Positions 16,265 to 34,647 of a stretch of 64,000 nt of DNA are shown here, in pieces (the stretch's first letter is position 1; each line of letters starts with the position of its first letter). Position numbers and translations under genes: made by a program. The notes beneath the pieces were generated by a model. It made no database searches. It was not told the origin of the DNA and saw only the letters and a list, made by a program, of their open reading frames with translations. Source of the stretch: Ensifer sp. IC3342 (lineage in GTDB: Bacteria; Pseudomonadota; Alphaproteobacteria; Rhizobiales; Rhizobiaceae); contig NZ_JADYVE010000012.1 in assembly GCF_020193655.1 (NCBI RefSeq), forward strand, positions 62,001 to 126,000. The letters are read 5' to 3'.

Positions 16265-16316
16265 CACCACGAAGATAGCTCAGATCGTTAGCTCAGCGCA
16301 GCGGCAGCTTGTGCAT

Positions 16317-16460: not shown

Positions 16461-16472
16461 TTTTGCACTGGA

Positions 16473-17351
16473 TCAGACTGGCGGAATGCCAGTCGTTTGA
16501 AGTCCGGGAAGGTAGCCGGCTGCTGCCTGGGCTTTGGCGGCGGCAGTGATGATCGCCCGCTTGTCGTTGTTCAACGCCTTGAGCCAGCTTTCCAGATAGG
16601 TCGCGGTGTTGTCGCGAGGATCGTGGGCCACCCTGAGATCGGCGCAGAGGAATGAAGCTGAGAGCTCGGCAACCAGCTCCTCGATCGCGTAGCTTTCACT
16701 GCCGAAGCGGCCGCTCAAGCCACGGTCGAGGCGATGCTTAGCGCCTGACCAGTGCAATATTTCGTGAAGCAAGGTCGGGTAAAGGTGAACCTCGTCGACG
16801 AAGCGTGCCCGATCGGGCATGAGGATGTCGTCGGGGGCGGGACGGTAGCAGGCGGTTGTTCCGCCGTAGGTGATCGCCGCGCCGGTGTTGCGGACGAAAG
16901 TTTCGACGGTCTCAAGATGCGGGACTGCCATTGCCGGCAGCTCCTCCACCGGCCGATAGAACCGGTCTGGAAGGTTCTCGATCTGCTCGACATTGAAGAC
17001 CGTGTAACCCTTGAGATAGGGAATTGCGCGTTCGTCATCTTCGCGCTCCTTGGGGGTGAAGGTGCCGTACTTGACGACAAGGGAGCCTTTCTCGCCCTTT
17101 CGGACCTGGCCACCGAGGTCCTGGGCTTGGCGGTAGGTCATCCAGGTGTTTTCCTCGTAGCCGGCGAGCTCACTTGCGAGCCACAGCATCAGAACATTGA
17201 TCCCGCGATAGGCTTCGCCGGTGGCGCGGCGCGGAACGAGGGAGCCGCGGCTGTTTCCGCGCCAGGGCCGGATCCACGGCCTTGTGCCGGCTTCAAGCTG
17301 CTCGATGATGGCATCGGTGATGCGCTGGTAGGTGTCCTTGATGCTCTGCAT
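16473..17351 (-). CDS. ArdC-like antirestriction protein / zincin metallopeptidase
   Basis: A 292-residue protein of the ArdC type: an N-terminal single-strand DNA-binding domain (DUF1738-like, TGEAYRGINVLMLWLASE near 50-68) and a C-terminal zincin-like peptidase domain with the metal motif HEILHWSGAKHR. ArdC proteins protect incoming plasmid DNA during conjugation. ATG 17351 has GGAG eight bases upstream. The frame continues upstream to 17426 without a better start. It is next to the parS array and transcribed in the same direction as repABC. Confidence 0.9.
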   Translation of the reverse strand: MQSIKDTYQRITDAIIEQLEAGTRPWIRPWRGNSRGSLVPRRATGEAYRGINVLMLWLASELAGYEENTWMTYRQAQDLGGQVRKGEKGSLVVKYGTFTPKEREDDERAIPYLKGYTVFNVEQIENLPDRFYRPVEELPAMAVPHLETVETFVRNTGAAITYGGTTACYRPAPDDILMPDRARFVDEVHLYPTLLHEILHWSGAKHRLDRGLSGRFGSESYAIEELVAELSASFLCADLRVAHDPRDNTATYLESWLKALNNDKRAIITAAAKAQAAAGYLPGLQTTGIPPV

Positions 17352-17572
17352 TGCCGTCTCCTTCCGTTGGTTGACGGCAAAAAACGGAGATAGCCGAAGC
17401 GAGCCTACGCACCCGTAGGGCCGCAACAGAGTGGAGGACCGCGCCAGCGGTTGCGTGGGGGAGGGGCTATCGTAGCTTGTTCGTCAAATCACCCAACGGA
17501 AGGAGAGGGCGCAGAACATCGGCGCCTCCTGCTCACGGATAGCTCTTGCAGCTGAAAGAGCCGGTGGGCCGG

Positions 17573-18622
17573 TTACCGCTCGCGATCGTCGTCATCACGC
17601 TCCCGACTGCGCTGTGCCGCCATTTGCGCCTCGATTTCCTTCAACTCCGGGCTATGGTCCTGTTGTGGCTGCCGCGCTGGCGCCCCCTGCGATTGCGCCT
17701 CCTGAGTGGGCTGCTCTCGCCTCACTCGGGAAAGGTCCGACCGGGCAGTGAAGGTGATCTCCCCGTCGTCCGGCAACCTCTCCGGCAGATCCGCGCGATC
17801 GGCGACGACAATCCCTTGATCGGTCACAAGGCTGGCAACGCGATTGTCGTGGCCGAGAACCGTTCCTGTGATCTCCTCGCCGGCGCGGGCGGCGCGGACA
17901 TGGTGTTGCAAGGGCTCTTCGCCGACCTCCCGCAAGTCTTCGAATGCGGATCGGAGAGCCTCCCGGCGCCCCGGATTCATCGCGTCCTCAATGACGTGCT
18001 TCATCGCGGGACTGGACGGGTCGTTCGTGGTCTCGATCGACGCCTCGATCATGCGCGGCTTGGTGATCACAGAGAAGTCGATTTCGCGGCCGTAGTGGCG
18101 GCCCAGCTCGGAAATAAACGCTTCCTGGGCACGTCCGTTTCCCTCTCTGAATGGATGCACATAGTTCAGCTCTGAGAGGACTTTCCCGGCGCGCTCAGCG
18201 AACTCCTCAGGCGTTGCATTGCGAAGGGCCTCTGGATCTCGGATCGGCTTCAGCGCCTCGTCCAGACCCATTTCTATGCGCGAGCCGGGCAGGAAGGACG
18301 TGCTGCCCTTAGAGAGGCCGCCGATCGGCTCTACGCGCTGACCCTCAACGACGGGACTTTCGTTGCGCGTATGACCGGCCCATTCGTACACATCCTGAAA
18401 AAATAGCCGTGAATCGCCTTCAGGTGAGCGTTGTCGAAATCGCCTTGCGGGCCGTCTCCTTCAGCAACTTCCGCCATCCGCACGGCGGTCGCGCGATACT
18501 CTTTCACGCGCAACTCGGAATGGGTTTCAATTCCCCATCTGTTTTTCAGAACGTTCGTCCGGTCTGGATCGTCCGAGGTGTTGGGTTAGGTGTAGGAACC
18601 TTTGGGGCGTTCATCAGCCATG
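17573..18622 (-). pseudogene. Fic-domain AMP transferase, broken twice
   Basis: The full-length gene should start at ATG 18622 (MADERPKGSYT) and end at 17573. Codon 12 is TAA (18587-18589) where relatives carry Tyr, and the frame continues unbroken behind it (PNTSDDPDRTNVLKNRWGIE). A second lesion lies at a run of six A on the plus strand (18398-18403): the frame needs a shift to pass from AIHGYFF to QDVYEWAGHTRNESP. Behind it the catalytic Fic motif HPFREGNGRAQ is intact. A Gln-rich, highly charged C-terminus follows. Fic enzymes AMPylate targets such as gyrase. The antitoxin gene is directly upstream. The A-run lesion could be a sequencing error. The stop codon is harder to explain that way. 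Confidence 0.85.
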
Positions 18623-18675
18623 GCGAAGCTCAACAAAAAGCCGCCAGCTCTCAGCGGGCCGCCTTGATCGGGAGG

Positions 18676-18879
18676 TTATCTGACAGGCGGCTCGATCATG
18701 AGCTGCCGGTATTCCTCGCGGGTGATGTCGCCGGCGACATAACGCGCGGTCGCCTCCTCGAGGACAGGATCGTGAACATAGCCCTGCCGGATATTGGCAG
18801 CGCGCGCCTGCTCGGCGGCCTTGCGCCGCTTCTCGATGGCTTCCGGGGAACGATCCGGACGGCGGGAATGCACGTTCAT
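18676..18879 (-). CDS. VbhA-type antitoxin of the Fic module
   Basis: A 67-residue protein matching the VbhA antitoxin family, which obstructs the Fic active site. ATG 18879 has GGAG nine bases upstream, and the longer frame to 19017 has no support. The family helix and end are clear (ARYVAGDITREEYRQLM). The inhibitory motif in VbhA is S-x-x-x-E-G. The aligned positions here are A28-x-x-x-Q32-G33 (ANIRQG), so both the Ser and the ATP-blocking Glu are lost. This fits relaxed selection after the toxin gene broke. It lies 53 bases before the fic start, same strand. Confidence 0.82.
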   Translation of the reverse strand: MNVHSRRPDRSPEAIEKRRKAAEQARAANIRQGYVHDPVLEEATARYVAGDITREEYRQLMIEPPVR

Positions 18880-18998
18880 CGGCAAATCTCCGGTACGGGC
18901 CACCCTAGCAGGAAAAATGCTGAAACTCCAGCACTTTGCCGGATTCTCCGGCCTTTCGAAGGTGGGCGCCCGGCTGCTCGCCGGGCGCTGTGAACGGT

Positions 18999-19331
18999 TT
19001 AATCGCGGGGTTCCCATTCGATGATCGCCTGCAGGGAGGCGTCGTCCTGGCCGGGGAACCGGCCGAGATTGGCGTTGTAGCGAAGCTTGCGGATCGAGAG
19101 GGTGTAGTACGGCTTGCCGTCCTGGTTATCTTTTTTCCAGATGCCGCCGACCTCGATGTCATGGCCGCGCGGTGACTTGGCGTAGATGCGGTGCGTCGGA
19201 GCCTTTTCATTGTCGGACGCGAACGGCACAACCTTGATGTCCATGTCGCGGTCGATGGTGGAGATGAGGCCGGCGCCCTTTGCGGTGTCGAGGTTGTCGC
19301 CGTCGAACTGGATGTAGTTGGTGATGTTCAT
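18999..19331 (-). CDS. DUF736 family protein
   Basis: A 110-residue protein of the DUF736 family, common on rhizobial and other alphaproteobacterial plasmids near ardC and partition genes. It is a mostly beta-strand small protein (ISTIDRDMDIKVVPFAS, EVGGIWKKDNQDGKPYYTLS). ATG 19331 has GGAG eight bases upstream. An in-frame GTG lies nine bases earlier. The function is unknown. It is first in a run of minus-strand genes leading through vbhA, fic and ardC to the replication operon. Confidence 0.85.
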   Translation of the reverse strand: MNITNYIQFDGDNLDTAKGAGLISTIDRDMDIKVVPFASDNEKAPTHRIYAKSPRGHDIEVGGIWKKDNQDGKPYYTLSIRKLRYNANLGRFPGQDDASLQAIIEWEPRD

Positions 19332-19811
19332 GTCTTTCACTCCTCTCTGGTGGTTGCGATGATCGTTCCAAAGGCACGGCGGAAAGCGGTGCCCACCGAA
19401 GGCCGGAGCGTCAGCGGAGGAGGCGAGAGGACGCGAACGTGCTGGTCGCCGATCATTTTTCCAAGATAGCTACGGGCTGCGACGCCACAGCGCCAAAACT
19501 TGCCGTCTTTCAACGCTATTGAAAAAACCTCATAAACCAAACAGGTGCAACAACGTGCTACACGCAAAAGCCTTTAAGGCGCGTGTTAGGCCGAGAATGC
19601 CCTTATTTCTTAATGGTTTTCCGTGTTTTTGCTGATCTTACGACGCCGCCTTTGAGGTCCCAAGGCTGAAGCAAGTTGCTGCAACAGTTCCTGAAACGCA
19701 AGAAAACCCGGGCGGGAAGGGGAGTTTGATGGTGTGGAACGGCCCTCCGAGCCGTCGCGGAAGATGACTATGCTGGTTCTCGAAGCGTCGGCATCAAGAA
19801 GGGGATACGCC
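19332..19811. other. Intergenic region left of the first IS110 copy
   Basis: About 480 bases. It should hold the promoter of the DUF736 gene and, near its right end, the left end of the IS110 element. Minus-strand frames here have no family resemblance. A small hairpin (ACGGCCCTCCGAGCCGT) lies at about 19739. Confidence 0.4.
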
Positions 19812-20844
19812 ATGGAAGGTATAGCAACCGTAGGACTGGATCTGGCGAAGAACACGTTCCAGGTTCATGCCGTGAATGCAGTTGGAGAAGTGATAGTTCG
19901 GCGCGCCTTACGCCGGTCGCAGGTCTTGGCTTTCTTTGAAAGGTTGCCGCCCTGTCTCGTTGGTATGGAGGCGTGTGGAAGTGCGCACTATTGGGCTCGG
20001 GAGATCGGCGCAATGGGGCACACAGTGCGCTTGATGCCAGCCGCCTATGTGAAAGCCTATGTCAAACGGAATAAGACGGATGCGGCGGACGCCGAGGCGA
20101 TCTGCGAGGCCGTGACCCGCCCAACGATGCGATACGTTGCAGTCAAAGGGGCGGCAGGAGCAGGCGGCGGCCATCATCTTGAGAACTCGCGACTTGCTCA
20201 CGCGACAACGAACACAATCCATCAATGTCCTGCGTGGTCATATGGCCGAGCTGGGGGTAATTGCCGCGGCCGGCGCGAAGAGCTGCGGCAAGCTGATTGC
20301 GATTGTACGAGACGATGCCGACGACAGGCTGCCGGCAATGGCGAGAGAGGCGCTAGCCGAGATCGCAGACCAGATCGAAAGCCTCAATGAGAAGATCGCC
20401 GCTTTGGAGCGCAAGATCGTTGCCACGGTGAGGCAGGATGAAGTCGCGCGGCGCCTGACAGCAATTCCCGGTGTCGGTCCGATCACAGCAGCGACAGTGA
20501 GGGCGGCAGTGCCCCATCCCGGAGGCTTTCGGAGCGGCAGGGACTTCGCTGCCTGGATCGGCTTGACACCACGGTCCAACTCGAGCGGCGGAAAGGAGAA
20601 ACTCGGTTCGATCTCGAAACGCGGAAATCCTCAGCTGCGCTCGCTATTGGTCGTCGGTGCAATGGCAATCCTGAAGCTATCGCGGAATGGCTTTGGAATG
20701 CCGCCGTGGGTGGCCGCCCTTCAACAGCGGCGTCCGTTCAAGGTTGTCGCCACGGCAATGGCGAACAAGATGGCAAGGGTCATTTGGGCCTTGATGATGA
20801 AGGGTGAACAATACAGTGCGCCCACAGCGATGATGAAACCATAA
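19812..20844 (+). pseudogene. IS110-family transposase, frameshifted (copy 1)
   Basis: The N-terminal RuvC-like DEDD half starts at ATG 19812 (MEGIATVGLDLAKNTFQVHA) and includes NKTDAADAEAICEA with the later acidic residues. At about 20145 the frame shifts from RYVAVKG to SKGRQEQAAAI, and the second half continues to 20844 with the helix-hairpin and C-terminal serine domain (LTAIPGVGPITAATV, FAAWIGLTPRSNSSGGKE, ISKRGNPQLRSLLV). IS110 enzymes normally come from one frame, so this copy is probably dead. Confidence 0.85.
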
Positions 20845-21371
20845 CGTCACACACTATTCCGGCGATTCCGCCGGATCATGGCAAGGTGCTTTCTGTTGAT
20901 GAATCGAAGGAGCGTCATCCCAGTGCAAATCAGACCGTTCCCCTCTTTGCGCATGGGAGCGCGTGAGTTTGATTAGGCGATTTGTGCTGCGGATATCATC
21001 ATGGCCAGCGGTTTTGACCGCGCAACAGGCCGGACATATGACCGCACCGGTCCACAGATTCAAAGACAGGAGTGGCCCTTGCCAAGCGGGCCGTTCCACA
21101 TATGAGGGGAGGGGGAATCGGGCCTCCCCTCAACATGATTGTGGGCCAGGTTGATTCTGGCCCACGGTCATCGGCGGTTGTGAAGCGGGAATGGCCGATC
21201 ACGCGGGAGGAACGTGACCGGCCCGCGACTGATGTCACTCAGCCGCTTGGGGGAACTGCTCGTCTTCCGCGGTGCTCTCGGCTCCAAGCTCCTGTTCCGC
21301 CTCGGCGGGGGCTATACGAAGCGGGAAGGATATCCAGCCGACCAAAGCAACGTCCAACGGCGTTTCGCTCG
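20845..21371. other. Intergenic region with IS end and gene debris
   Basis: About 530 bases. It begins with the probable right end of IS110 copy 1. Near 21235-21375 the minus strand reads ETPLDVALVGWISFPLR and then EAEQELGAESTAEDEQF to a stop, an acidic gene tail without a clear beginning. No intact gene. Confidence 0.4.
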
Positions 21372-21590
21372 TCAAAAAAGATCGCGCTTTACCGATCTAC
21401 CGGCTTCCTCGTATGCAGCCAGCCCGCCGATGAACTGCACGCGCTTGTCCGTCGCCGGAATCATTTCCTCGGTGAGTGCTCGCCGGATCGAATGAGGATC
21501 GCGGTTCCAAGAGGTGAGCGAGTTCCAGACGGCCACCTGTCTTTCGTGATCATCGCTCACCGTGAAGGCCGATATCTGCGCAGCGGGGGA
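21372..21590 (-). pseudogene. Fragment of a ParB-like plasmid protein
   Basis: The minus strand codes ISAFTVSDDHERQVAVWNSL, then IRRALTEEMIPATDKRVQFI, then AYEEAGRSVKRDLF and a stop. This matches the middle of the large ParB/RepB/Spo0J-family proteins found on rhizobial plasmids next to DUF736 and ardC genes. Both the N-terminal nuclease-like domain and the C-terminus are missing. Upstream homology is lost by about 21590. Confidence 0.6.
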
Positions 21591-21888
21591 GAGGGGGGCA
21601 AGGGGACAAATCGGAGGGAGATCACCCGCCCGAAGGGGCGACGCAAAATCCGCCTCGAGCGGATCCGCGTCGATCCTGCACGGAGCGAGCTAAGGGCGAG
21701 CGGAGGAAGGACGGGGAGACCGATTTTCCCCTTGCAGGGGAGAGGGGGCAGAGCGCCCTTTCCCCACCTAAGGGGACAATGAGCATACCATGCGCAGGCA
21801 TAGCCGAAGCCAGTTCGCGCACCGCTTGACCGGTTAAAAGGGCAGCCGCAGCAGGTTTAGCATAGCGCCGCCCGAAGGGCGGAAACCG
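21591..21888. other. Low-information region before IS110 copy 2
   Basis: About 300 bases of G/A-rich sequence with several short runs (GGGGGAGAGGGGGG and similar) and no gene-like frame. It separates the ParB fragment from the probable left end of the intact IS110 element. Confidence 0.4.
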
Positions 21889-23124
21889 GGACCGACATGG
21901 GATAATTGCGGTCAGTGCTATGCTGCCGCTGTTTCACAACCCGGGAGCAGGCCATGGAACAGTTCGTCGGACTGGACGTATCGCAGGACATCACACACGT
22001 GTGCGCCATTGGCAACGATGGCAAGATCGTTTGGCAGGGCACATGTTTTTCGACCCCGGACGGGATTTCAGGGGCGATCAAGGCCAAGGCGCCGAATGCG
22101 ATCCGGATAGGACTGGAGAGCGGTCCGCTGTCCACCTGGCATTGGCACGCGCTCAAAGCGGAAGGATTGCCGATCGTCTGTCTGGACGCCCGCCATGCCA
22201 AGGCGGCCTTGAACATGCAGATGAACAAGACCGACAAGAACAATGCTCATGGCCTGGCACAAATCGTCAAGGCTGGCTGGTATCGTGAAGTCGGTGTCAA
22301 AAGCTTCGACAGTCACACGGTTCGATCGATGCTGGGGGCGCGGGCTCAACTCGTCGCCATGCGCGTTGAAGTGAGCAACCAAATCAGGGGAATGCTGAAG
22401 ACCTTCGGCGTTGTCCTCAGGCGACGCGACGGACTGCCGTTCGAAACACTGGTCAGCGACGCGTGCGCGCCAGATGCTGGTCGCGTAAGTCATACCGTTC
22501 GCGCCTTGCTCACGGTCTACTCGGGCTTGAAGCAGCAAATTCTCTGCTTCGACCGAGAGCTGGCGCGTTATGCCAGGGGAAACGCGACATGCCGGCAGCT
22601 GATGACCATTCCGGGGATTGGGCTGTTGACGGCGATCGCCTTCATCACCGCAATCGATGATCCGGTGAGGTTCGCAAAGTCGAGCAGCGTTGGTGCCCAT
22701 CTCGGCCTGACGCCCAGGCGCTATCAGTCGGGCGAGGCCGACCACAAGGGCAAGATCTCCAAATGTGGAGATCCTCTCGTCCGTGCCTACCTGTTCGAGG
22801 CCGCGACCACCTTGTTGACGCGGGTCGAGAAATGGTCGGCGCTCAAGGCCTGGGGTCTGCGGATCGCGAAGAAGAGCGGCATGAAAAAAGCAGCTGTCGC
22901 CGTTGCCCGTAAGATGGCCGTCATAATGCACCGTTTGTGGGCGACTGGCGGAACGTTCCGATGGTCGTCGAGCGCGGCAATCGAGACCGCTTAGGGGCGT
23001 CTCGATCGATCACCAGATCCGTCACCTGACGGCAGCCCTGTCCCTTGCCGGGACGAAGCAGTGGTAATCCCGCGGGGGCAGTTGCGAGTCTTCTAAAACG
23101 GAATCGCGCGACCGACATTGGGAA
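21889..23124 (+). mobile_element. IS110-family element, copy 2, apparently complete
   Basis: The element holds one intact transposase. Similar short sequences lie outside it in direct orientation: GACCGACATGGGA at about 21890 and GACCGACATTGGGA at about 23110, which may mark the ends. IS110 elements lack classic terminal inverted repeats. The noncoding stretches on both sides of the gene (about 60 and 120 bases) are where a bridge RNA would be encoded. The ends are approximate. Confidence 0.5.
21954..22994 (+). CDS. IS110-family transposase (copy 2, intact)
   Basis: A 346-residue DEDD recombinase. The N-terminal RuvC-like domain begins MEQFVGLDVSQDITHVCAIG, with the acidic MNKTDKNNAHGLAQI segment near residue 88. 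The C-terminal part has the MTIPGIGLLTAIAFITAIDD hairpin and the serine-containing transposase_20 region (HLGLTPRRYQSGEADHKGKI). No frameshift or stop interrupts it. It is the only undamaged one of the four IS110 transposases here. The ATG at 21954 follows GGGAGCAGGCC and fits the family start. The frame reaches back to 21906. Confidence 0.92.
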   Translation: MEQFVGLDVSQDITHVCAIGNDGKIVWQGTCFSTPDGISGAIKAKAPNAIRIGLESGPLSTWHWHALKAEGLPIVCLDARHAKAALNMQMNKTDKNNAHGLAQIVKAGWYREVGVKSFDSHTVRSMLGARAQLVAMRVEVSNQIRGMLKTFGVVLRRRDGLPFETLVSDACAPDAGRVSHTVRALLTVYSGLKQQILCFDRELARYARGNATCRQLMTIPGIGLLTAIAFITAIDDPVRFAKSSSVGAHLGLTPRRYQSGEADHKGKISKCGDPLVRAYLFEAATTLLTRVEKWSALKAWGLRIAKKSGMKKAAVAVARKMAVIMHRLWATGGTFRWSSSAAIETA

Positions 23125-23600
23125 GCACAGCATCCGATGCCATGATGTGGCGAGCACCGGTCTCGACCACGGAGAGAACAGTGAATCCGGCAAGAGCAGG
23201 CTGAGAAAAAACACTTGATCGTTCCGCCCTCGGCAACCCTACGGCGCTCTCATGACGATCACGGATGAATGTGCACGTGTTTATTCTCGCATCAAAGCCA
23301 GCGCTGACGCAAGATGACGACCTGGCTGGTGTGCTGCGCGACTGTCGCCTGACAACGATTGATCACGCACTCATCCGCGGATTGGTTACCGCACGACCCT
23401 GTTCCGTCGTGGACCTGCCTCCTTCAACCTGGCGGGCATCGGATTTCCTGCCCCAGCGCCGTATCGAGGATTGTCCTACGTCGATCAGACCGCGCAGCAC
23501 GCCACCCAGGTCCTATGTCCTTCCCCTGAATCCCAGCTTCCTTCCCTGCAAACCGCGCGCTCCGGGCTGCGCAACCCCGACCAGCTTCGCCCTGTGCGCG
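23125..23600. other. Intergenic region between IS110 copies 2 and 3
   Basis: About 475 bases. A plus-strand frame from 23265 exists but has the composition of noncoding sequence and no family resemblance. It probably contains the right end of copy 2 and the 3' noncoding end of copy 3. Confidence 0.4.
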
Positions 23601-24654
23601 CTACCCTCGAGCCTCAGAGGCAACGACAGGCGTTTGCCGCGCGATATCCCAGATGAAGCCGGCAAGCTCTCGCGCGACCGCCGTGACGACTTTGACCGTC
23701 GGTTTTCCGGCCGCAGCCAGGCGCCGGAACTTGGCGCAAAGGCGTACCTGCGCTTTCCAGGCAATCGCGTTGATCTCATGCGCGATTGCGGTGTTGCGCC
23801 GTCGCAATGCCAGTCCCTCCCTGGCGAGAAATGTGCCATGCGGACTCGATGAGCATCGTGCGGGCAGCGGCATTGCCGGTCCGGGTGATCTCCCCACGCC
23901 TGATGCTCTTTCCGGTCGAGTGCTCGGCGGGAACAAGACCGAGCCATGCCATCAGCTGTTTGGGACTTGTGAAGCGATCGAGATCGCCGATCTCCGCCAC
24001 AAGCGTCACCGCCGCAATCAATTTTACACCTCGCAAGGCCTGAAGCGCTTCGACGATCGGCGCCAGCGTCCAGTCCGAAACCGCCTCGGCCAATACGTCT
24101 TCCAGCCGCTCGCAGCATGCCTCGAGGTCGTGGATGCGTCGCTTGTATTCCTCGAAGACAAACTGCTGATGTGGGAACGCGAATGTCAGCTCGGCCAACC
24201 AGTTCCAGTAGGACTTGCCCCAGATCGACTTACCGGTGAACCGCCGGTCATGGCGCAACAGGAAACTCTTCAACGCCGCTTTTGCGGCGGAAAGGTCTGT
24301 CTTGGCCTGTCGGCGCGCACGCACGACGTCCCGGATCGCCTCATGGGCCTCATCCGGAACCCAGACGGCAACAAGTTCGCCGGCGCGCAACAGACGGGCC
24401 AGCATGACGGTACAGTCAATCCCGACTTTCCGGAGATAGCGATAGATGACAAAGCCACAAGGGCCGGATTCGTAGCAGACGCAAAGCTCGAAACCGCCCT
24501 GAGCGATTTTCTTCAGCGCCGCGTGCAACGCTTCTGGTCGGTTCGCCACCGTGCCGAAATAGCGAACCTCCCGGTCGTTGCCTTCATCTGCCACCGCAAT
24601 GGCGACCGTCTCCTGATGAACGTCGAGGCCGATGTACTTCCTTCCCGCCGACAT
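23601..24654 (-). pseudogene. IS110-family transposase, frameshifted (copy 3)
   Basis: The N-terminal part starts at ATG 24654 (MSAGRKYIGLDVHQETVAIA) and runs through WVPDEAHEAIRDVVRARRQA, VKLIAAVTLVAEIGDLDRFT and LMAWLGLVPAEHSTGKSIRR. It loses frame near 23820, just after ESAWH. The C-terminal end continues in another frame (NTAIAHEINAIAWKAQVRLC and on to 23601). It belongs to a different IS110 subgroup from copies 1, 2 and 4. The single shift makes it inactive unless read through. Confidence 0.85.
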
Positions 24655-25197
24655 GTGAGCTTCCTTTCTGTTGCTCGTCCACAAAGAGCACATTCAAAAA
24701 GCTCCGAACTCGGCGCAAGTGATCGTCATCGGGTCAACCTGGCGGGCGCGGGTTGCCTTCGGCTGCTCCGCTCCCTGTCGGTCGCTGCGGCCGCTTGCCG
24801 GCCTGTGCCGGCGCGGCTGGAAAACGCCTCGCGCGACTACGCTGAACTTCTCAACAGGGTGGAGTCCGGAAGTTCGTCGGGATGGTGCCGAGTGACTGCT
24901 GTGACCATAGTTGCGGACGTTTTTGTCCAAATCCGTTTGACTGTCGACCCAGAATGCACGCATTCAAGCCCTACAGGCGCACCGCTGGTCGACAGATCGA
25001 TCGTGGCGACCTGGTGCGGAACGCCGATTTCCTCGAGAAGGATCCGGATCCCCAGCGAACAGGATCGGGGAGCATGAAAGATGGTGTAACGGGCGGATCC
25101 CGGCCCGCCAGGTTTGAAGGGCCGGTGGTCGTCCCTCACAATGATGGTGTCGCGGAGTCAGGAGTGGCCTGCTCCATAGCAGCACGGAGAGACGACC
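24655..25197. other. Region between IS110 copies 3 and 4
   Basis: About 540 bases with no intact gene. A minus-strand glutathione S-transferase fragment is listed separately. The rest should include the left ends of two IS110 copies. GGAGAGACGACC just before 25198 gives the ribosome binding site of copy 4. Confidence 0.4.
24977..25091 (-). pseudogene. Glutathione S-transferase N-terminal fragment
   Basis: The minus strand codes RYTIFHAPRSCSLGIRILL followed by EEIGVPHQVATIDLSTSG, the first beta-alpha-beta unit of the thioredoxin-like N-domain of bacterial glutathione S-transferases, including the catalytic-region PxSCS pattern. No start codon and no continuation are present. It is a leftover of a gene cut by IS activity. 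Confidence 0.6.
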
Positions 25198-26086
25198 ATG
25201 AAGCAGTATGCCGGCATCGACGTATCCCTGGAATACTCAAGGGTGTGCGTGGTGGATGCGGACGGCCGCATTGTGCGGGAAGCAAAGATCCTCAGCGAAC
25301 CCGATGCGCTGATCGCCTGGTTCGGCGAGTACGGCGTGGCGATGGAGCGCATTGGTCTGGAGGCCGGCCCCTTGTCCCAGTGGCTCCATGCCGGGATGGT
25401 GAAAGCAGGTCTTTGCGTCGAGCTGATCGAGACGCGCCACGTGCGTGCAGCCTTTAAGACGATGCCGGTCAAGACCGACAAGAAGGACGCCCGCGGCATT
25501 GCGCAGTTGATGCGGCTTGGCTGGTTCAGACCGGTCCACTGCAAATCTCTTGCCGCCCAGGAGGTGCGGGCGCTGCTGACCGCCCGCAAGCTTCGTTCAG
25601 GGCAAGCTTCACGACATCGAGATGAGCCTCCGGGGCATCCTGCGCGGCTTCGGCCTCAAGGTCGGGCCGACGACACGGCGCACTTACGCGGGGCGGATCC
25701 GCGAGCTGATTGCAGGCCATTCGACCTTGGAAGCGATCGCGACGGCACTGCTGAAGGTGCGCGACGCGCTTGTGCATGAATTTGCAGGTTTCGAGCGCAA
25801 GCTGCGTGCCATCGCCCGTCAGGACGACAACGCACGGCGGCTGATGACGACGCCAGGCGTTGGCGTTCTGGTGGCGCTGACGTTTGTCGCAGCCGTCGAC
25901 GCGCCGGAGCGATTCCGCTCCTCACGCGCGGTGGGGCCGCACTTCGGATTGACGCCGAAGAAATATCAATCGGGCGAGACCGATCAAAGCGGTCGCATCT
26001 CGAAGATCGGCGATGGCAGCGTGCGAACCGCGCTCTACGAGGCGGCCAATGAGTTGCTATCATCTGCAGCGGATAGCGCTCCTTGA
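25198..26086 (+). pseudogene. IS110-family transposase, frameshifted and 3'-truncated (copy 4)
   Basis: It starts at ATG 25198 (MKQYAGIDVSLEYSRVCVVD), with MPVKTDKKDARGIAQLMRLG in place. A shift near 25592 breaks the frame: TARKL should pass to VQGKLHDIEMSLRGILRG, which lies one base off. The second half runs through MTTPGVGVLVALTFVAAVD and HFGLTPKKYQSGETDQSG to LYEAANELL. After about 26056 the sequence is no longer transposase but the antisense of the molybdopterin enzyme gene, so the C-terminal part is missing. It is related to copy 2 by sequence pattern. Confidence 0.85.
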
Positions 26087-28625
26087 GTTCGGTATTGCGC
26101 AGCCCTTCCCAGGAGGGGATGTAACGATTGACCGGTGGGCGGTCCGGATTGTCTGCCGTGTTCCGCTTGAGGATCTCGGGCACGAATTCGAGTTTGCCGC
26201 TCGGCGTCTGCAGGCCCATGCCGAACTCTTCGGCGTACTGGGATGGCATGGGAGCCGGTTCCGGCAAATCCTTGCGCCTGCCCTCGGCAAACCAGCGCAT
26301 GTCGACGGGCTGGCGTAGTTCCGGCTTTTCGGGTGGCACGACGTAGTAGCCCTTGCGACAGAATTTCTTCCAGGAAATTTCGCCGGGCAGATCTGATGAA
26401 TCGAACACGCGCTTGACCCAATCGAGCTCGCTGCAGCCCTCGGTGAAGACAGCGCCCAGGCCCAGCCGGGTCAGGATGGCGGTGAATATGTCGTAGTCGG
26501 ACTTCGACTCACCCAAGGGCTCGATGCACTTATGCTGGAGGGTGATGACGCGATGATTTACGACGTTAACACCGTGATGGGCGTAGCCGCCGGAGTTCGC
26601 CCATTCGCCTATGTCCCAGCGCTCCAGCGAGGTGCAGGCCGGCAGTATGATATCGGCAAACTGCGCCTCGCCCTCCATCCAGATGGACTGGTTCACCACG
26701 AACTCGATGCTCTCGTGCCGATAGGCATCCACCCAGCGTCCCGATCGAGTAACGGTGCTGAGCGAGGAGCCGCCGTAGCGGTAGATCATGCGTATCGGCG
26801 AGTAGCCCGGCATGGGATAGCTGAAAGGGGCGAACTGGGCCTCCTGGGCCATGCCGTCCCAGAGATAGCCGGTGGCGTGACCGTTGATGATCGCGTCGGG
26901 CAGTTGCTGGCGCGGCACCATCTGCTTGACGGGATTCATCGTCAGGATGTGCGGCATGCGCTGATAATTATTGACCGCATTGCCTGTCCACGCCAGGTCG
27001 CCGGAAATCCCTCCATCTGCATAGCCCGGAAAATAAAAATGCAGGTCGTGCGGGACGCCGATCTGGAGACCGCCGAAATTGATGCCCGGCTTGCCCCAGC
27101 CCTGCATCGCCATCATCATGACCATGCAGCGCGCCCATTGCGCACCGCTCGCGCCGCGGCCTGCGCCGCCGAAGCCGGTGCCGGTCATCCCGACAGCTAG
27201 ATAGACTTTCCTGCCGCCCCACTTGCGGGCCAGGGCGCGCACGTCTCTGGCAGGTATGCCGGTCTCGGCCTCCTGCCATTCGGGGGTCTTGGGAACGCCA
27301 TCGGTTTCGCCCAGCAGATACGCCTTCCATTCGTCGAAGCCGGTGGTGCGAGTCGCGACGTACTCCTCGTCATAAAGGCCTTCCGTGACCCAGACATACA
27401 TGATCGCCTGAGCCAGAGCCGCGTCGGTCTGCGGCCGAACGGGAAACCAGCGTCCGCCCAGCAACTGGGCTGTCGGATTGCAATGCGGGTCGATATGCAC
27501 GAACTCGATGCCGAGTTCCTTGGCCCAAAGACGGCGCGTGGTGCCCTCGAACCCCGCATAGGCCCCATTGGTGCTTTCGGGATCGCAGGACCAGAAGACG
27601 ATCAACTCGGCTTCCTTGAGGCAATCCTCCACTCCGCCATAGCCCGCAGGCACGCCGACACGCATTGAATTGCCGAAATGGTGCATTGCGCCCCAGTACC
27701 ACCCCTCCCAACTGTCCGGATTGGCCGCGACCCGGGTGAAGCCGATCAGGTTGGCGAACCGCGTCAGCGAGCTCAGGTAATAGCCCACGTTTCCCCACTG
27801 GTGATGGGACGACATGGGGAACGTGATGGAGCCGGGCCCGTGGACGCGTTTCTGCCGGTTGATCTCCTTGGCTACAATGTCCAGCGCCTCGTCCCAGTCG
27901 ATCCGCACGTAGCCGGATTTTCCGCGGTTCTGGGGATTGCGTTCGCCATCGGGATCGAAATCCACCCGCTTCATTGGGTAAAGGATGCGCTTGTCCGAAT
28001 AGACCAGCGATTTCATTGTCAGAGCGTGGGGCGCTACCAGCGCGCGGCGGGGCGGGCTGAACTTACGCCCGCGGGCTTCGATCACCCAGGTGGACGGGTC
28101 GCTGCCGTCGAACTCGATGGGAGTAACCCGCAGTATCCTGCCGCCCTTGACGTATACGAACAGGGGACCGCCGTTGGTGCAGGTGGTGTAGCGAAGGCTG
28201 CCGTCGGGCATCGGCGTTCCCATGGAAAGCCCCGTGGTTTCACTCATGTTGAGCGTCTGCGTAAACCAGACGACCAGATCGTCTGGTCCCGTGGTCACGA
28301 CTTTGAAGTTCTTGGCCGCGTGGATGATTTCCAACTGATCGCGATTGGGCATCAGGAGCTTCAAGGCCGTCGACGCGTCCTTGAAAGACATGGCCACTTC
28401 GGCCTCGGCCGCCGAGCCTGCACGGGAACGGAATCTGCCGCCTCGGATTTCCACAATGCGCCCGATGCTCCCGTCCTGGAGACCGATCCACGCGACGAGG
28501 TTGCGCTGTTTCAGCCGTTCAGCGAATGCCGGGACGCGGGAGGCGGTGAGGTTCATCACTTTGGGCAGGGCAAAGAGGATGGCCCTGAGAACCTGCCGGT
28601 TCATCTTCGGCTTAAGGGCTAACAT
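25656..28625 (-). CDS. Molybdopterin oxidoreductase, 3' end replaced by antisense IS110
   Basis: A 989-codon frame. Residues 1 to about 856 are a molybdopterin enzyme of the DMSO-reductase superfamily, most like the transhydroxylase/acetylene-hydratase-type large subunits. The N-terminus (about 50-115) looks SCP2-like, and the core begins near YTTCTNGGPLFVYVKGG. Recognisable stretches include RILYPMKRVDFDPDGERNPQ, SHHQWGNVGYYLSSLTRFAN and WSCDPESTNGAYAGFEGT. No N-terminal CxxCxxxC iron-sulfur motif is seen. From about 26056 the frame runs antisense through IS110 copy 4 and is Arg/Ser-rich nonsense, so the C-terminal cofactor-binding domain is lost. It is probably non-functional. No small iron-sulfur subunit gene is next to it. 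Start ATG 28625 is tentative, and 28604 is possible. Confidence 0.75.
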   Translation of the reverse strand: MLALKPKMNRQVLRAILFALPKVMNLTASRVPAFAERLKQRNLVAWIGLQDGSIGRIVEIRGGRFRSRAGSAAEAEVAMSFKDASTALKLLMPNRDQLEIIHAAKNFKVVTTGPDDLVVWFTQTLNMSETTGLSMGTPMPDGSLRYTTCTNGGPLFVYVKGGRILRVTPIEFDGSDPSTWVIEARGRKFSPPRRALVAPHALTMKSLVYSDKRILYPMKRVDFDPDGERNPQNRGKSGYVRIDWDEALDIVAKEINRQKRVHGPGSITFPMSSHHQWGNVGYYLSSLTRFANLIGFTRVAANPDSWEGWYWGAMHHFGNSMRVGVPAGYGGVEDCLKEAELIVFWSCDPESTNGAYAGFEGTTRRLWAKELGIEFVHIDPHCNPTAQLLGGRWFPVRPQTDAALAQAIMYVWVTEGLYDEEYVATRTTGFDEWKAYLLGETDGVPKTPEWQEAETGIPARDVRALARKWGGRKVYLAVGMTGTGFGGAGRGASGAQWARCMVMMMAMQGWGKPGINFGGLQIGVPHDLHFYFPGYADGGISGDLAWTGNAVNNYQRMPHILTMNPVKQMVPRQQLPDAIINGHATGYLWDGMAQEAQFAPFSYPMPGYSPIRMIYRYGGSSLSTVTRSGRWVDAYRHESIEFVVNQSIWMEGEAQFADIILPACTSLERWDIGEWANSGGYAHHGVNVVNHRVITLQHKCIEPLGESKSDYDIFTAILTRLGLGAVFTEGCSELDWVKRVFDSSDLPGEISWKKFCRKGYYVVPPEKPELRQPVDMRWFAEGRRKDLPEPAPMPSQYAEEFGMGLQTPSGKLEFVPEILKRNTADNPDRPPVNRYIPSWEGLRNTELKERYPLQMIATHWPPRRARFARCHRRSSRCDRFDRSRPIDISSASIRSAAPPRVRSGIAPARRRLRQTSAPPERQRLASSSAAVRCRPDGRWHAACARNLQIHAQARRAPSAVPSRSLPRSNGLQSARGSAPRKCAVSSARP

Positions 28626-28634
28626 GTGCGCTCA

Positions 28635-28697
28635 CTAGGTCCGAGCGCCCAGAAATTCCGGTCCTGTCGCGCTGGCGCGCGCGGCTTGCTGTTTCAT
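28635..28697 (-). CDS. 20-residue open frame with a strong ribosome binding site
   Basis: ATG 28697 follows GGGAGGAGACGCCT, the best ribosome binding site near the molybdopterin gene. It codes MKQQAARASATGPEFLGART and then TAG, ten bases before ATG 28625. It is either a leader peptide or the remaining start of a deleted gene in front of the molybdopterin gene. No family resemblance. Confidence 0.35.
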   Translation of the reverse strand: MKQQAARASATGPEFLGART

Positions 28698-28722
28698 AGG
28701 CGTCTCCTCCCTACCAATCCAA

Positions 28723-28755
28723 TTGACTGATAAGTCATAATGACGATTAAGTCAA
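28723..28755. promoter_or_regulatory. Tandem TetR-like operators
   Basis: Two similar inverted repeats lie 17 bases apart just upstream of the 28697 start: TGACTGATAAGTCA (28724-28737) and TGACGATTAAGTCA (28741-28754). The TGACT/AGTCA half-sites match those at the TetR-controlled promoters near 43.8 and 47.3 kb. Confidence 0.5.
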
Positions 28756-29542
28756 TAACGTGGAGGTTGAGCCGTAACCGGCAATTTTGATCACCGGCGT
28801 TCAGAACTTTTGAATTGTCTCTGTGAGGGGGAGGATCCAAACACGCGGTGGCGGAATGCCCCTCCGCTCGCTCGGTGGCTCGGCGTGTGGCGGATACGAC
28901 CCTGGCACGGAGGAAATCTGCCAAAATGCCAGACAAGGCACAGCGTGTTGAGGGCTTTAGAGAATTGCTCTGCCGAGCCGCGCGAATGCTCGAAAGCTGG
29001 GGCGCCAAGGGTGCCCCAGCTCGACCCATTCTAGGCAGGCGAGTGGTGGCCGCCAGCGCCAGTCTTTGTCCCGAGCGGCCCATCCGCGGCCGTCGACATG
29101 CCCGCATCTCCGCAGGCATCAATGAACGCTTCGCGCGTGATGGCAACTGGCGCCACTCGGTTTAGGGCACGGCGGCATGTTTGAACCGCCCGATTATATT
29201 TTCTACCTTGATAGATGGCCCTATCCCCTTCGAGGAAATCGAGAGCGTCGTTGACAGAAGCGAAGACCTGAAAACAGCCCGTCCTTCATGCGGACGGTGA
29301 CGGGCGCCATCCAAACCAATTCCGGGTTTAGCGGGATGTCCTCTCCTTTCGCTCAATGCGGACAAGAGACTGTCCCGGGATCGCTCAATTGGCCGTAGCC
29401 GCCACCGCATATGTGCCATCCAGCGTGCATTCGACCATCACGACGCGCGTGATTTTCGGTTGGACTTTGACGTGGATCAAGGCTGCCTTGCGGCGAGGGA
29501 GTAGACAGATACGCAGATTTTTTCTTTGAAGGGAATATCGCG
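28756..29542. other. Intergenic region of about 790 bases before the export operon
   Basis: Plus- and minus-strand frames of 70-150 codons exist at 28694-29165, but they are Arg/Ala/Ser-rich, lack ribosome binding sites and resemble no family. The region must hold the promoters of the molybdopterin gene (left) and of the HlyD operon (right). GAAGGG at about 29528 is the binding site for the TTG start at 29543. Confidence 0.4.
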
Positions 29543-30646
29543 TTGTTGATCGATCATCCGCCGACCGCGAAGGATGAACAACAGCGTGCGGTTCCGCCAG
29601 GAGCGGTGAAAACCGAACGCGAGCACCATGCGGTCGAAGTCCAAAGGAAGGCGCCTCTCAAGCGGTACGTGACCGTGGCGGTGGTGCTGGGCGCGCTGGG
29701 CCTTGCCGGGGGCGCCGGCTTCTACCTTTGGAAGCAACAAACAGCCAGTGCCCTGCCGGAGGGCATCGTCAGCACCAACGGTCGCGTCGAGGCCACTCAA
29801 TTCGACATCGCGACGAAGATCGCGGGCCGCGTCATCGAGATCGTGCCACGTGAGGGCGATGTGGTACTGGCGGGGAGCATGGTCGCCCGCCTCGATCAGG
29901 CTGAGCTCGAAGCGCAGCTGCGCCAGGCGGAAGCTGAAGTCAAACGCGCAAGTCAATCGCTCGCGGCGGCGCAGGCGCTTGTCGAAAGCCGCAAGGCCGA
30001 GCTGACATTCGCCGACCAGGAGCTTGAGCGCGCCGAAGCGCTCCTCGAGAAAGGCTTTGGGACACGCGAGAAGCAAGAGGAGCGGAGGCAGCTCATTGTA
30101 AGCGCCGCAGCCGCCCTCAAGGCGGCGAACGCTCAGGTCGACGAGGCCCACGCGGCGATCGCGGCGGCGGATGCCCAGGTCGACCGGCTGAAGACAAGCC
30201 TCGCTGACGCGACAATCACCTCGCCTGTGCGCGGCCGGGTGCAGTATCGGCTGATCGAGCCGGGAGCAGTATTGCCGGCGGGTGGTCGCATTGCCACCGT
30301 GCTCGACCTCTCGGACGTCTATATGACCGTCTTTCTCCCGGCTGGGGTTGCGGGACGACTAGCCATTGGCGATGAGGCGCGCGTAGTGGTTGATGCCGCT
30401 CCGGAATACGTCTTTCCCGCCACCGTCTCATTCGTGGCGCCTGAATCGCAGTTCACTCCGAAGACGGTGGAGACCCAGTCGGAACGCGAGCAGCTTTATT
30501 TCCGGGTGAAGCTGCATGCGCCACCCGAAGTGCTCAGAGAAATGGAGGATGCGGTGAAGGGCGGCCTTCGCGGGATGGGCTACGTTCGGGTCGATGCCAC
30601 GGCGGCCTGGCCCGCCTGGCTAGCCGTCAAGGTTCCCAATGCATGA
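29543..30646 (+). CDS. HlyD-family periplasmic adaptor (YhiI-like)
   Basis: A 367-residue membrane fusion protein. One N-terminal membrane segment (about 43-65) is followed by a biotinyl-lipoyl half (VSTNGRVEATQFDIATKIAG), a long coiled-coil hairpin (about 125-220), the second lipoyl half (ATITSPVRGRVQYRLIEPGA) and a beta-barrel. It links an inner-membrane ABC exporter to the outer envelope. The start is TTG 29543. A second TTG follows directly. It overlaps the next gene by eight bases. Gene order matches yhiI-rbbA-yhhJ of E. coli. Confidence 0.9.
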   Translation: MLIDHPPTAKDEQQRAVPPGAVKTEREHHAVEVQRKAPLKRYVTVAVVLGALGLAGGAGFYLWKQQTASALPEGIVSTNGRVEATQFDIATKIAGRVIEIVPREGDVVLAGSMVARLDQAELEAQLRQAEAEVKRASQSLAAAQALVESRKAELTFADQELERAEALLEKGFGTREKQEERRQLIVSAAAALKAANAQVDEAHAAIAAADAQVDRLKTSLADATITSPVRGRVQYRLIEPGAVLPAGGRIATVLDLSDVYMTVFLPAGVAGRLAIGDEARVVVDAAPEYVFPATVSFVAPESQFTPKTVETQSEREQLYFRVKLHAPPEVLREMEDAVKGGLRGMGYVRVDATAAWPAWLAVKVPNA

Positions 30647-33440
30647 GCGCGCCACACAGCCGAGCGTTGACATTGCGGTCGCCGCCTCGCTTGAGGGTGT
30701 CTCGCACCGTTACGGCAAGGTCGTCGCGCTCGACGATGTGAAAGTCACCATTCCGGGCGGCTGTATGACCGGGCTGATCGGTCCCGATGGCGTCGGCAAA
30801 TCGACCTTGCTGGCGTTGATCTCGGGTGTGCGCAAAATCCAGTCGGGCTCAGTTTGGGCATTGGACGGTGACATGCGCGACCAGGCGCACCGCCAGCGCA
30901 GCTATGCGCGCGTCGCTTATATGCCGCAAGGTCTGGGGCGCAATCTCTACCCGACCCTCAGCGTCTTCGAAAACCTCGACTTCGTCGGGCGGCTATTCGG
31001 ACAGCCGGAGGCCGAGCGGAAGGCACGCATCGACGATCTGTTGCGCAGTACCGGTCTCGATCCATTTCCGGACCGGCCCGCAGGGAAGCTCTCTGGCGGC
31101 ATGAAGCAGAAGCTGTCTCTGTGCGGCGCGCTGATACACGATCCGGACCTTCTCATCCTCGACGAGCCGACGACGGGCGTCGACCCGCTTTCGCGCCGGC
31201 AGTTCTGGGAGTTGATCGATCGCATCCGTGCGCGCCGGCCGCAGATGAGCGTCATCGTCGCGACCGCCTATATGGAGGAAGCCGATCAGTTCGCCTGGCT
31301 CGCAGCGATGGACGCCGGCCGCGTCATCGCAACCGGATCTCCCGCCGAAATCAAGGCGCGAACCGGCGCCGACACCCTCGAACAAGCCTTCATTTCGCTG
31401 CTGCCGGAGGACAAGCGCGGCGACCATAGAGGCGTCCAGATCCCGCCTCGCGTGACGCAGGCCGGCCCGCCGGCGATCGAGGCCGATGGGCTCACGAAAA
31501 AGTTCGGCACGTTCGCCGCGGTCGATCACGTGAGTTTCCGCATTGAGAAGGGGGAGATCTTCGGCTTTCTCGGCTCGAACGGCTGCGGCAAGTCGACGAC
31601 CATGAAGATGTTGACCGGCCTCTTGCCTGTATCGGAAGGGAAGGCGTTCCTGTTCGGCAAGCCGTTGAACGCAGACGACATCGAGACGCGCCAACGCGTC
31701 GGCTATATGTCGCAGGCGTTCTCGCTCTACAGCGAGCTCACGGTCTACCAGAATTTGCAGATGCACGCCAAGCTGTTCGACCTGCCGGCTGCCGAGCAGG
31801 GGCCGCGCATCGAGGAAATGCTCAACCGCTTCGGCCTCAGGGACGTCGCTGACACCATGCCGGAGAGTCTGCCGCTCGGCATGCGGCAACGGCTGCAGCT
31901 GGCGGTCGCCGTCCAGCACCGCCCCGAGATGCTGATACTCGACGAGCCGACTTCGGGGGTCGACCCCGTGGCCCGCGACCAGTTCTGGGAATCGCTGGTC
32001 GATCTGTCGCGCAAGGACGGCGTTACGATTTTCCTGTCCACGCACTTCATGAACGAAGCGGAACGTTGTGACCGCATTTCGCTAATGCATGCAGGCAAGG
32101 TGCTGGCGGCGGACGCGCCGCGCGCGCTCACCGAGGCGCGCCACGCCGAGACGCTCGAAGAGGCGTTCATCGCCTATCTCGAGGATGCGGTGGCCGCCGC
32201 CAAGGGACCAGCGAAAGCGCGCGAACCTGCAGCCGAGTTGGTGTCGGCGACTCCCACCGCGGAGCGGACAAACAGTGCGCGATTCAGCCTTGCCCGGCTG
32301 TGGGCCTGCGCACGGCGCGAGGCCGTGGAGATCATCCGCGATCCGGTGCGCATCGCCTTTGCCCTGCTCAGCCCCGTCCTCCTGATGTTCGCGTTCGGCT
32401 ATGGCATCTCATTCGATGTCGAGCATCTGCGCTTCGCGGTATTCGATCAGAGCCGCTCACTCGAAAGCCGGGAGTTCCTGGAGGGTTTCGAAGGCTCGCG
32501 CTTCTGGAGCCGGCAGCCGGATATCACCGCTCCTGATCAGATCCCGACTCGCCTCCGCGCCGGCGAGCTCAAGTTCGCGATCGAGATCCCACCTCTCTAT
32601 GGCAGCGATTTGCTTAGGGAACGCCGCCCGGAGATTGGTATTTGGATCAACGGCGACATGCCGAACAGGGCCGAGACCACGCGCACCTATCTGGGCGGAT
32701 TGACGCTCGACTATCTGGCCAAGCAGTCCGCACGCCGCGCCGGGGACATGGCTGCCTTGCCCGGCACTGCCACGGGCAGCGAATCATCTGCCCTGCCTGT
32801 CAATTTCGAATCCCGCTTCCGCTACAACCAGTCGCTCAAAAGCGTCTATTCGATGGTGCCGAGCGTCATCATGATGATGCTGATCCTGATCCCTGCCATC
32901 ATGACGGCGCTGGGCGTCGTGCGCGAGGTCGAAACAGGATCTATCGCCAACTTCCGCTCCACGCCGCTGACCAGCATCGAGTTCCTGCTCGGAAAACAGG
33001 TGCCTTATCTCATCATCGGTCTCATCAGCTTTGCTACGCTGATGGTGTTGGCGCTGTTCGTGTTCGCCGTGCCGGTGAAGGGCTCTTGGCTGGCGTTGAT
33101 TGTCGGCGCGTTCATTTATCTCGGGGCTTCCACTGCGTTCGGCCTGGTTGTGTCGACCCTCACCCGCACTCAGGTGGCTGCGGTGTTCGCCACTGCGATC
33201 ATCGCGCTGATCCCGACTTCACAGTTCTCAGGACTCCTGGTTCCCGTCTCCTCGCTGTCAGGTGCCGGACGCGCTCTCGGACTCGCTTTCCCGGCCTCAT
33301 GGTTCCAGCAGATCAGCACGGGCACGTTCAACAAGGCGCTCGGTTTCTCCGAGCTTTGGCTCAACCATTTGGTGCTCGCCGTATTCGTCCTCGCCTTCGT
33401 TACCGTGGCAAGCCTGATTCTCAGGAAACAGGAGTCCTGA
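30639..33440 (+). CDS. rbbA: Double-ATPase ABC transporter fused to a permease (RbbA-like)
   Basis: 933 residues in three parts: ATPase 1 (about 12-245; Walker A GPDGVGKST, signature LSGGMKQKL, Walker B LLILDEPTTGVDP), ATPase 2 (about 278-510; Walker A GSNGCGKSTT, Walker B LILDEPTSGVDP) and an ABC-2 permease (about 555-933) with an N-terminal membrane anchor, a large periplasmic loop and five C-terminal spans. The second signature reads LPLGMRQRL, so the canonical LSGGQ is altered there. The E. coli homologue RbbA is also described as a ribosome-associated ATPase. Here the HlyD partner and second permease point to export of an unknown substrate. Confidence 0.93.
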   Translation: MHERATQPSVDIAVAASLEGVSHRYGKVVALDDVKVTIPGGCMTGLIGPDGVGKSTLLALISGVRKIQSGSVWALDGDMRDQAHRQRSYARVAYMPQGLGRNLYPTLSVFENLDFVGRLFGQPEAERKARIDDLLRSTGLDPFPDRPAGKLSGGMKQKLSLCGALIHDPDLLILDEPTTGVDPLSRRQFWELIDRIRARRPQMSVIVATAYMEEADQFAWLAAMDAGRVIATGSPAEIKARTGADTLEQAFISLLPEDKRGDHRGVQIPPRVTQAGPPAIEADGLTKKFGTFAAVDHVSFRIEKGEIFGFLGSNGCGKSTTMKMLTGLLPVSEGKAFLFGKPLNADDIETRQRVGYMSQAFSLYSELTVYQNLQMHAKLFDLPAAEQGPRIEEMLNRFGLRDVADTMPESLPLGMRQRLQLAVAVQHRPEMLILDEPTSGVDPVARDQFWESLVDLSRKDGVTIFLSTHFMNEAERCDRISLMHAGKVLAADAPRALTEARHAETLEEAFIAYLEDAVAAAKGPAKAREPAAELVSATPTAERTNSARFSLARLWACARREAVEIIRDPVRIAFALLSPVLLMFAFGYGISFDVEHLRFAVFDQSRSLESREFLEGFEGSRFWSRQPDITAPDQIPTRLRAGELKFAIEIPPLYGSDLLRERRPEIGIWINGDMPNRAETTRTYLGGLTLDYLAKQSARRAGDMAALPGTATGSESSALPVNFESRFRYNQSLKSVYSMVPSVIMMMLILIPAIMTALGVVREVETGSIANFRSTPLTSIEFLLGKQVPYLIIGLISFATLMVLALFVFAVPVKGSWLALIVGAFIYLGASTAFGLVVSTLTRTQVAAVFATAIIALIPTSQFSGLLVPVSSLSGAGRALGLAFPASWFQQISTGTFNKALGFSELWLNHLVLAVFVLAFVTVASLILRKQES

Positions 33441-34567
33441 TGCGCAAGCGGCTCATCAATATTCTGGCACTCGGTGTCAAGGAACTTTACAGCATCCGCG
33501 CCGACCCAGTCATGCTGGTGCTGATCCTCTACACGTTCACCTACGCCGTGTACGCAGTTGCGACTGGCGCCAAGCTCGAGGTCTACAACGCCTCGGTCGC
33601 CATCGTCGATGAGGACCGTTCCGAAATCTCGAGGCGCATCAACGAGGCCATCCTACCGCCTTTTTTCCAGGCGCCGCAGGAAATCTCGGCCAGCGAAATT
33701 GGTCCGGCCATGGACTCCAACCGCTTCATCTTCGTCATCGAAATCCCGCCGAAATTCGAACAGGACCTGCTTTCGAATCGGAGGCCAAGCGTACAGATCA
33801 ACGCCGATGCCACGGCGATTGCCATTGCAGGCAATGGTTTGGGCGACCTGCAGCAGATAATTGGCCAGCAGGTCCTGAGCTATGTCCAGAATGCCAGCGG
33901 GGCACCTTCGCTGCCGGTCAATTTCGTGTTCCGCGTCATGTTCAATCCCAATCTGCACTCGCACTGGTTCACGTCGGTGATGCAGATCATCAACAATATC
34001 ACCATGCTGTCGGTCATCTTGACCGGCGCCGCTTTGATCCGTGAGCGCGAGCATGGCACCATAGAACACCTGCTTTCCATGCCGGTGACACCCAACGACG
34101 TCATGCTCGCCAAGATTTGGGCGAACGGCCTTGTCATCGTCTTCGCGGCCGCAGTGTCCATGATGATCGTGGTGCAGCTCGTCCTTCAGGTCCCGATCGC
34201 CGGCTCGCTCTGGCTGTTCCTGGCAGGTACACTGCTGTACCAGTTCTCGGTGACGGCGCTCGGCATCCTGATTGCGACCTTCACGACCTCTATGGCGCAG
34301 TTCGGGCTCTTGTGTATCCCGATTCTCGTGATCCTGCAGTTGCTGTCGGGCTCGAGCACGCCGCTCGAAACCATGCCGCAATGGCTCCAGAATGTGATGC
34401 AGCTCGCGCCTACGACACATTTCGTCAGCTTCGCCCAGGCGGTCCTCTATCGCGGCGCCGGCCTCGCGATAGTATGGCCGCAGATGCTCGCGATAGCTGT
34501 CATCAGCGCCCTGATTTTTGTCTTGTCCGGCCTTCGCTTTCGCAAAACACTCGTCGCCATGCAGTAG
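33440..34567 (+). CDS. yhhJ: ABC-2 type permease (YhhJ-like)
   Basis: A 375-residue ABC-2 permease with one N-terminal membrane segment (about 25-42), a periplasmic domain of about 130 residues and five to six C-terminal spans. The family segment IREREHGTIEHLLSMPVTP lies before them. The start overlaps the rbbA stop (TGATG). It is the third gene of the exporter. The permease half fused in RbbA and this protein would form the heterodimeric channel. Confidence 0.92.
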   Translation: MRKRLINILALGVKELYSIRADPVMLVLILYTFTYAVYAVATGAKLEVYNASVAIVDEDRSEISRRINEAILPPFFQAPQEISASEIGPAMDSNRFIFVIEIPPKFEQDLLSNRRPSVQINADATAIAIAGNGLGDLQQIIGQQVLSYVQNASGAPSLPVNFVFRVMFNPNLHSHWFTSVMQIINNITMLSVILTGAALIREREHGTIEHLLSMPVTPNDVMLAKIWANGLVIVFAAAVSMMIVVQLVLQVPIAGSLWLFLAGTLLYQFSVTALGILIATFTTSMAQFGLLCIPILVILQLLSGSSTPLETMPQWLQNVMQLAPTTHFVSFAQAVLYRGAGLAIVWPQMLAIAVISALIFVLSGLRFRKTLVAMQ

Positions 34568-34647
34568 GCAGCCGACAAAGAGGCCGGAACGCTGCACTTC
34601 GAACAACTCCAAATCCTCATCCTGCTTCCGAGCGTTCGATCACCTGC

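Follow-up and report, generated by a model that had tools for sequence, protein, structure and literature searches.

Genes and features at the locus

The window, a 64,000-nucleotide stretch of the genome of Ensifer sp. IC3342, carries on its minus strand an open reading frame of 989 codons (25656-28625), which begins as the large subunit of a molybdopterin hydroxylase and ends in antisense through a remnant of an IS110-family insertion sequence (IS). The presence of this hybrid frame had been noted in the original prediction and was confirmed. Comparisons with a second IS copy of the same genome, situated on contig C25 (the C25 copy), and with related genomes, including those termed G018 and G026 below, delineate the following features:

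24567-25081, no strand assigned: left flank, contiguous with an 8.6-kb operon segment in G018; the IS insertion point lies at about 25077-25081
25078-26051, plus strand: IS110-family, IS1111-type remnant, with the left end, the left subterminal inverted repeat and a part matching 284 of 345 transposase residues
25085-25094, plus strand: left subterminal inverted repeat TGTAACGGGC, identified from the C25 copy and located by reading the window sequence
25592, plus strand: 1-bp insertion relative to the C25 copy, shifting the transposase frame
25656-26048, minus strand: tail of 130 non-native codons (plus stop) that closes the 989-codon frame, antisense through the IS
26049-28625, minus strand: truncated AhtL/RhL-like molybdopterin hydroxylase large-subunit gene, comprising native codons 1-858 and two bases of codon 859
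26050-26051, no strand assigned: deletion junction, at which IS homology (to 26051) overlaps enzyme-gene homology (from 26050) by 2 bp

A large subunit lacking its C-terminal domain

Pfam searches with the window frame recovered the AhtL-like domain 1 (PF21423, E = 9.2e-25) and the Molybdopterin domain (PF00384, E = 1.4e-25) but no Molydop_binding domain (PF01568), which occupies residues 853-970 of the intact 999-residue protein of Ensifer sesbaniae. Compared with the intact relative, the window gene is missing about 140 C-terminal residues that correspond to this domain. Relatives were also retrieved with the first 856 residues of the frame and the best 80 of 295 loci were kept; 77 of these have a visible stop and every one of the 77 extends 137-168 residues beyond residue 856, the remaining three ending at contig ends. 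Because all relatives with a visible stop run so far past this point, the large-subunit gene is truncated, and the counter-proposal that the family normally ends near residue 856 is refuted.

The intact relative aligns over residues 143-988 with the large subunit of pyrogallol-phloroglucinol transhydroxylase (AhtL/PgtL; PDB 4v4c), from which it differs by about 140 additional N-terminal residues, and the lost Molydop_binding domain falls inside the aligned stretch. The window gene has 67% identity to a gene on plasmid pLuFRes1 of Aromatoleum anaerobium, the host strain being the resorcinol degrader that carries the resorcinol hydroxylase RhL. In the related genome G018 and in Ensifer canadensis a 4Fe-4S small subunit adjoins the large subunit, whereas in the window it is missing. 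Hence, in contrast to AhtL/PgtL and RhL, the window gene has neither the C-terminal domain nor a small subunit, and by its sequence is a broken AhtL/RhL-like relative and not a working member of the group.

The IS1111-type remnant and its neighborhood

Two open pieces on the plus strand (25198-25779 and 25622-26086) are the two parts of a single IS110-family transposase split by the insertion at 25592. The Pfam domains of the DEDD transposase of the IS110 family, PF01548 and PF02371, fall on its two halves, and the model NF033542 matches each half at 94.8 and 95.9 bits respectively, both below the whole-protein cut-off of 140. The C25 copy is 96% identical to the IS in the window and its transposase is open over 345 residues. 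It has 10-bp subterminal inverted repeats (TGTAACGGGC and GCCCGTTACA), the right one of which lies about 240 bases past the transposase stop. Subterminal inverted repeats and a non-coding region downstream of the transposase, the source of the guide RNA, are features of IS1111 elements (PMC11187229). The C25 copy resembles the type in its 10-bp repeat, and its stretch of about 240 bases is a candidate for the non-coding region. The window copy, on the other hand, is a left-hand remnant: relative to the C25 copy it lacks the last 61 transposase residues, the putative non-coding stretch behind them and the right end, such that of the two repeats only the left one is kept and GCCCGTTACA is deleted. 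The same paper gives 7 bp between the left end and the repeat in IS1111 elements, and as the match to the C25 copy starts at 25077 we place the left end at about 25078. In two further IS copies (L099 and L100) ATTACCCCA stands instead of AAAGATGG directly before the left inverted repeat.

The remnant belongs to a group of three different IS110-family transposase genes that occupy about 4 kb of the window (21906-22994, plus; 23776-24693, minus; 25198-26051, plus and broken). In G018 pieces of window 20840-23540 are found directly after the counterpart of window 48492, at the opposite end of the shared block (L116 12061-15341), which indicates that the two genomes differ by a rearrangement of this IS-rich left part. 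A repeat search of the whole window found no repeats of 60 bases or more, and a literature search returned nothing linking IS110 elements in Sinorhizobium with gene fusion, pseudogenes and deletion.

A single junction truncates both genes

The enzyme-gene homology at the DNA level stops at 26049 or 26050, according to the relative compared, and the IS homology to the C25 copy ends at 26051. When the nearest relatives are compared, the two homologies have 2 bp in common (TG, 26050-26051); with relatives that read ATG there, the overlap is 3 bp. On the two sides of this point, the sequence following the junction in the window was seen in none of the 14 IS copies compared, and that preceding it in none of the 13 enzyme-gene relatives compared (17 were tried). 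Thus, as originally predicted, one junction removed the C-terminal parts of both genes, homology to both being lost at 26050-26051; the single point of loss stands and its position, earlier put at about 26056, has to be moved. The native part of the enzyme ends not at residue 856 but with codon 858 and two bases of codon 859, and in the transposase terminus previously read as LYEAANELL the residues ELL are already the antisense of the enzyme gene. Likewise, the transposase does run to the junction in terms of homology, which reaches 26051, but not as an intact frame, being broken by the insertion at 25592. The observation of mutual truncation is therewith confirmed, and its reading as a deletion is supported by the sequence comparisons described below.

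The junction was seen in one assembly. An 801-bp query spanning it gave some match in 22 of 33 genomes of the genus (16 candidates scored per genome), and in the 32 other genomes no close match crossed the junction among the at most 16 first-look candidates scored for each. In one of them (G005) two IS matches of 69% identity pass the junction by a few bases on the IS side. Among 72,556 plasmid records none matches a 301-bp junction query over 80% of its length; 73 records give some match, and in the 60 of these that were listed it ends by window position 26051.

The undeleted arrangement in related genomes

In G018 (locus L109) window 24567-25081 corresponds to positions 1-511 and window 26050-36444 to positions 9118-19501, and 8,606 bp (L109 512-9117) stand where the window has the IS remnant. 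In G026 window 24857-25081 and the enzyme gene occur in the same order, 8,678 bp apart, and the intervening operon DNA is about 91-93% identical to that of G018. At the left site both genomes continue past GAAAGA into similar sequence, whereas the window enters the IS. The DNA missing from the window encodes the remainder of the large subunit, its 4Fe-4S small subunit and another seven open reading frames of the operon. Besides the remaining large-subunit sequence, the G018 segment contains, according to Pfam searches, the small subunit (Fer4_11), a TetR regulator, an AMP-binding enzyme, three Glyoxalase/VOC frames, an FAA hydrolase and a Toluene_X porin. Plasmid pT173c of Ensifer canadensis has the order large subunit, 4Fe-4S protein, TetR, acyl-CoA synthetase, two VOC proteins, FAA hydrolase and porin.

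We observed that the uninterrupted site of G018 (L109 ~512-530) has TCGCATAA right after the insertion point and that of G026 (L133) has TTGCATTA, and that TCGCATAA resembles ATCGCATAATGTATC, which in other IS copies flanks the inverted repeat on its right. This sequence is possibly the target of the IS; the likeness was noticed after the fact. On the minus strand at 24837-25077 an N-terminus resembling glutathione-S-transferases (FHAPRSCSLGIRILLEEIG) was recognized by eye, interrupted by the IS; the counterpart of this reading frame in G018 matched no Pfam family.

The missing DNA was also sought in the window's own genome. The 8.6-kb G018 segment matched there only by its 32-bp left edge and one 118-bp stretch of 72% identity (40 of 95 first-look candidates scored). 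Protein searches with the lost C-terminal part and with the 4Fe-4S small subunit, in which all candidates were scored, gave no matches in this genome, although as a control each query matched once in G018 and once in G026. Other molybdopterin enzymes that a search brought up in the window's genome are 27-28% identical. The suggestion that the C-terminal domain might be found elsewhere on the replicon was accordingly not upheld by either DNA or protein searches of the genome. A search of the same genome with the deleted right part of the IS (query L002 2440-2800) returned only the source C25 copy, besides pieces of 35 and 44 bases.

Two relatives keep the undeleted order, and searches of the window's own genome did not recover the intervening DNA; the junction was therefore produced by a deletion rather than by a simple insertion. 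The original prediction had left a choice between deletion and recombination of an IS copy with the gene: the first is favored by these data, and the second holds only as a joining of unrelated ends with 2-3 bp of overlap. Homologous recombination between two IS copies was rejected, as it would leave the right end of the IS at the gene.

Proposed course of events and alternatives

Based on these observations we propose, with a probability of about 0.89, that an IS inserted beside the operon and that an end-joining deletion of about 9 kb later removed the right end of the IS together with the operon up to codon 859. In the first step an IS1111-type element entered at about 25078, on the far side of the operon and 8.6 kb from codon 859, as comparison with the two uninterrupted sites in G018 and G026 shows. 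The subsequent deletion would begin at transposase codon 284, take in the remainder of the IS (about 0.45 kb if the C25 copy serves as the measure) and about 8.6 kb of the hydroxylase operon, and end at large-subunit codon 859. Its outcome is directly visible in the comparison with the relatives, and we infer that a single event produced it. The ends would finally have been joined by illegitimate end joining with a trivial overlap of 2 bp, which is near chance and by itself indicates no repair route. The genome carries Ku-family genes (six matches, all over the cut-off), so a route of this kind is available to the organism, making it possible without thereby demonstrating it. How the insertion of the IS, its frameshift and the deletion followed one another is likewise inferred. 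Both the enzyme and the transposase would then be dead, and the 989-codon frame would be a by-product.

Among the alternatives, a chimera of the assembly or library that joins two separate places of the genome has a very small likelihood. The assembly is a draft of 115 contigs, the junction is absent from the other records listed, and the IS of the window and the C25 copy share an identical stretch of at least 35 bp that ends exactly at the junction. However, the C25 copy does not run into the enzyme gene, and a repeat-driven mis-join would need to make do with the 2-bp overlap. Furthermore, the two IS copies can be told apart by a divergence of about 4% and by the frameshift peculiar to that of the window, and searches of the assembly did not bring up the intervening operon at another place. 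In two relatives the left flank and the gene are ordered and oriented alike, with about 8.6 kb between them, unlike what would be expected of a random chimera.

Slightly less probable again is an aberrant deletion made by the RNA-guided transposase of the IS1111-type element itself, with cuts falling within the transposase gene and at enzyme codon 859. The concentration of three IS110-family transposases, whole or broken, at 21906-26051 speaks for such an activity, and if this explanation were true the 9-kb deletion would represent a destructive side reaction of RNA-guided transposition. Nevertheless, the breakpoint lies inside the transposase gene rather than at an end of the IS, and the gene side does not, by eye, have the GGAA-type flank found right of other copies.

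The idea that the 989-residue hybrid is a selected, functional gene fusion is close to negligible. In its favor, the frame stays open for 130 codons past the junction, a length reached in that register by 2.3% of sequences when the C25 copy is randomised synonymously and by 0.4% when the codons of the window copy are shuffled. Against it, both the cofactor-binding domain and the iron-sulphur subunit have been lost, and the antisense register, one of three, is open for the same 130 codons in the C25 copy, where there is no fusion, and for 79-250 codons over 14 IS copies, C25 included (13 read over 857 bases and one over 376). A special meaning of the long antisense frame was rejected on account of the fusion-free C25 copy and the variation in length among copies. 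We therefore regard the tail, on the evidence of these reading frames, as incidental, though it is longer than most randomisations.

Age of the loss and state of the gene across the genus

The enzyme gene is present in 6 of the 33 genus genomes. In three (G026, G025 and G005) it has 999 codons and no stop. The other three carriers are broken, each by a different lesion: the window by the junction described above, G018 by a 4-bp gap with a change of frame, and G032 by an insert of about 1.5 kb (L111 11936-13431) that splits the large-subunit gene and encodes an IS110-family transposase (PF02371 and PF01548). At codons where the five other sequences agree, the window differs by 9 synonymous changes and 1 non-synonymous change; the corresponding numbers of synonymous and non-synonymous differences are 9 and 5 for G026, 19 and 5 for G018, 16 and 8 for E. 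sesbaniae, and 35 and 1 for G025. Given the ratio of 9 to 1 and the lack of any stop codon in the native part of the window gene, the loss looks recent, and the large-subunit gene seems to have been under constraint until a short time ago. A scarcity of non-synonymous changes is not peculiar to the window, as it is also seen in the intact gene of G025 with 35 to 1.

The locus is a well-documented but ordinary instance of pseudogenisation and gene decay. It nonetheless shows clearly how a catabolic operon was lost: the large subunit is cut, and the partner subunit, the regulator and the genes behind them have disappeared, whereas two relatives retain them in place. For annotation this means that the 989-residue open reading frame should not be named a working hydroxylase. 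Judging by the three different lesions in three of the six carriers, these bacteria seem able to do without the pathway.
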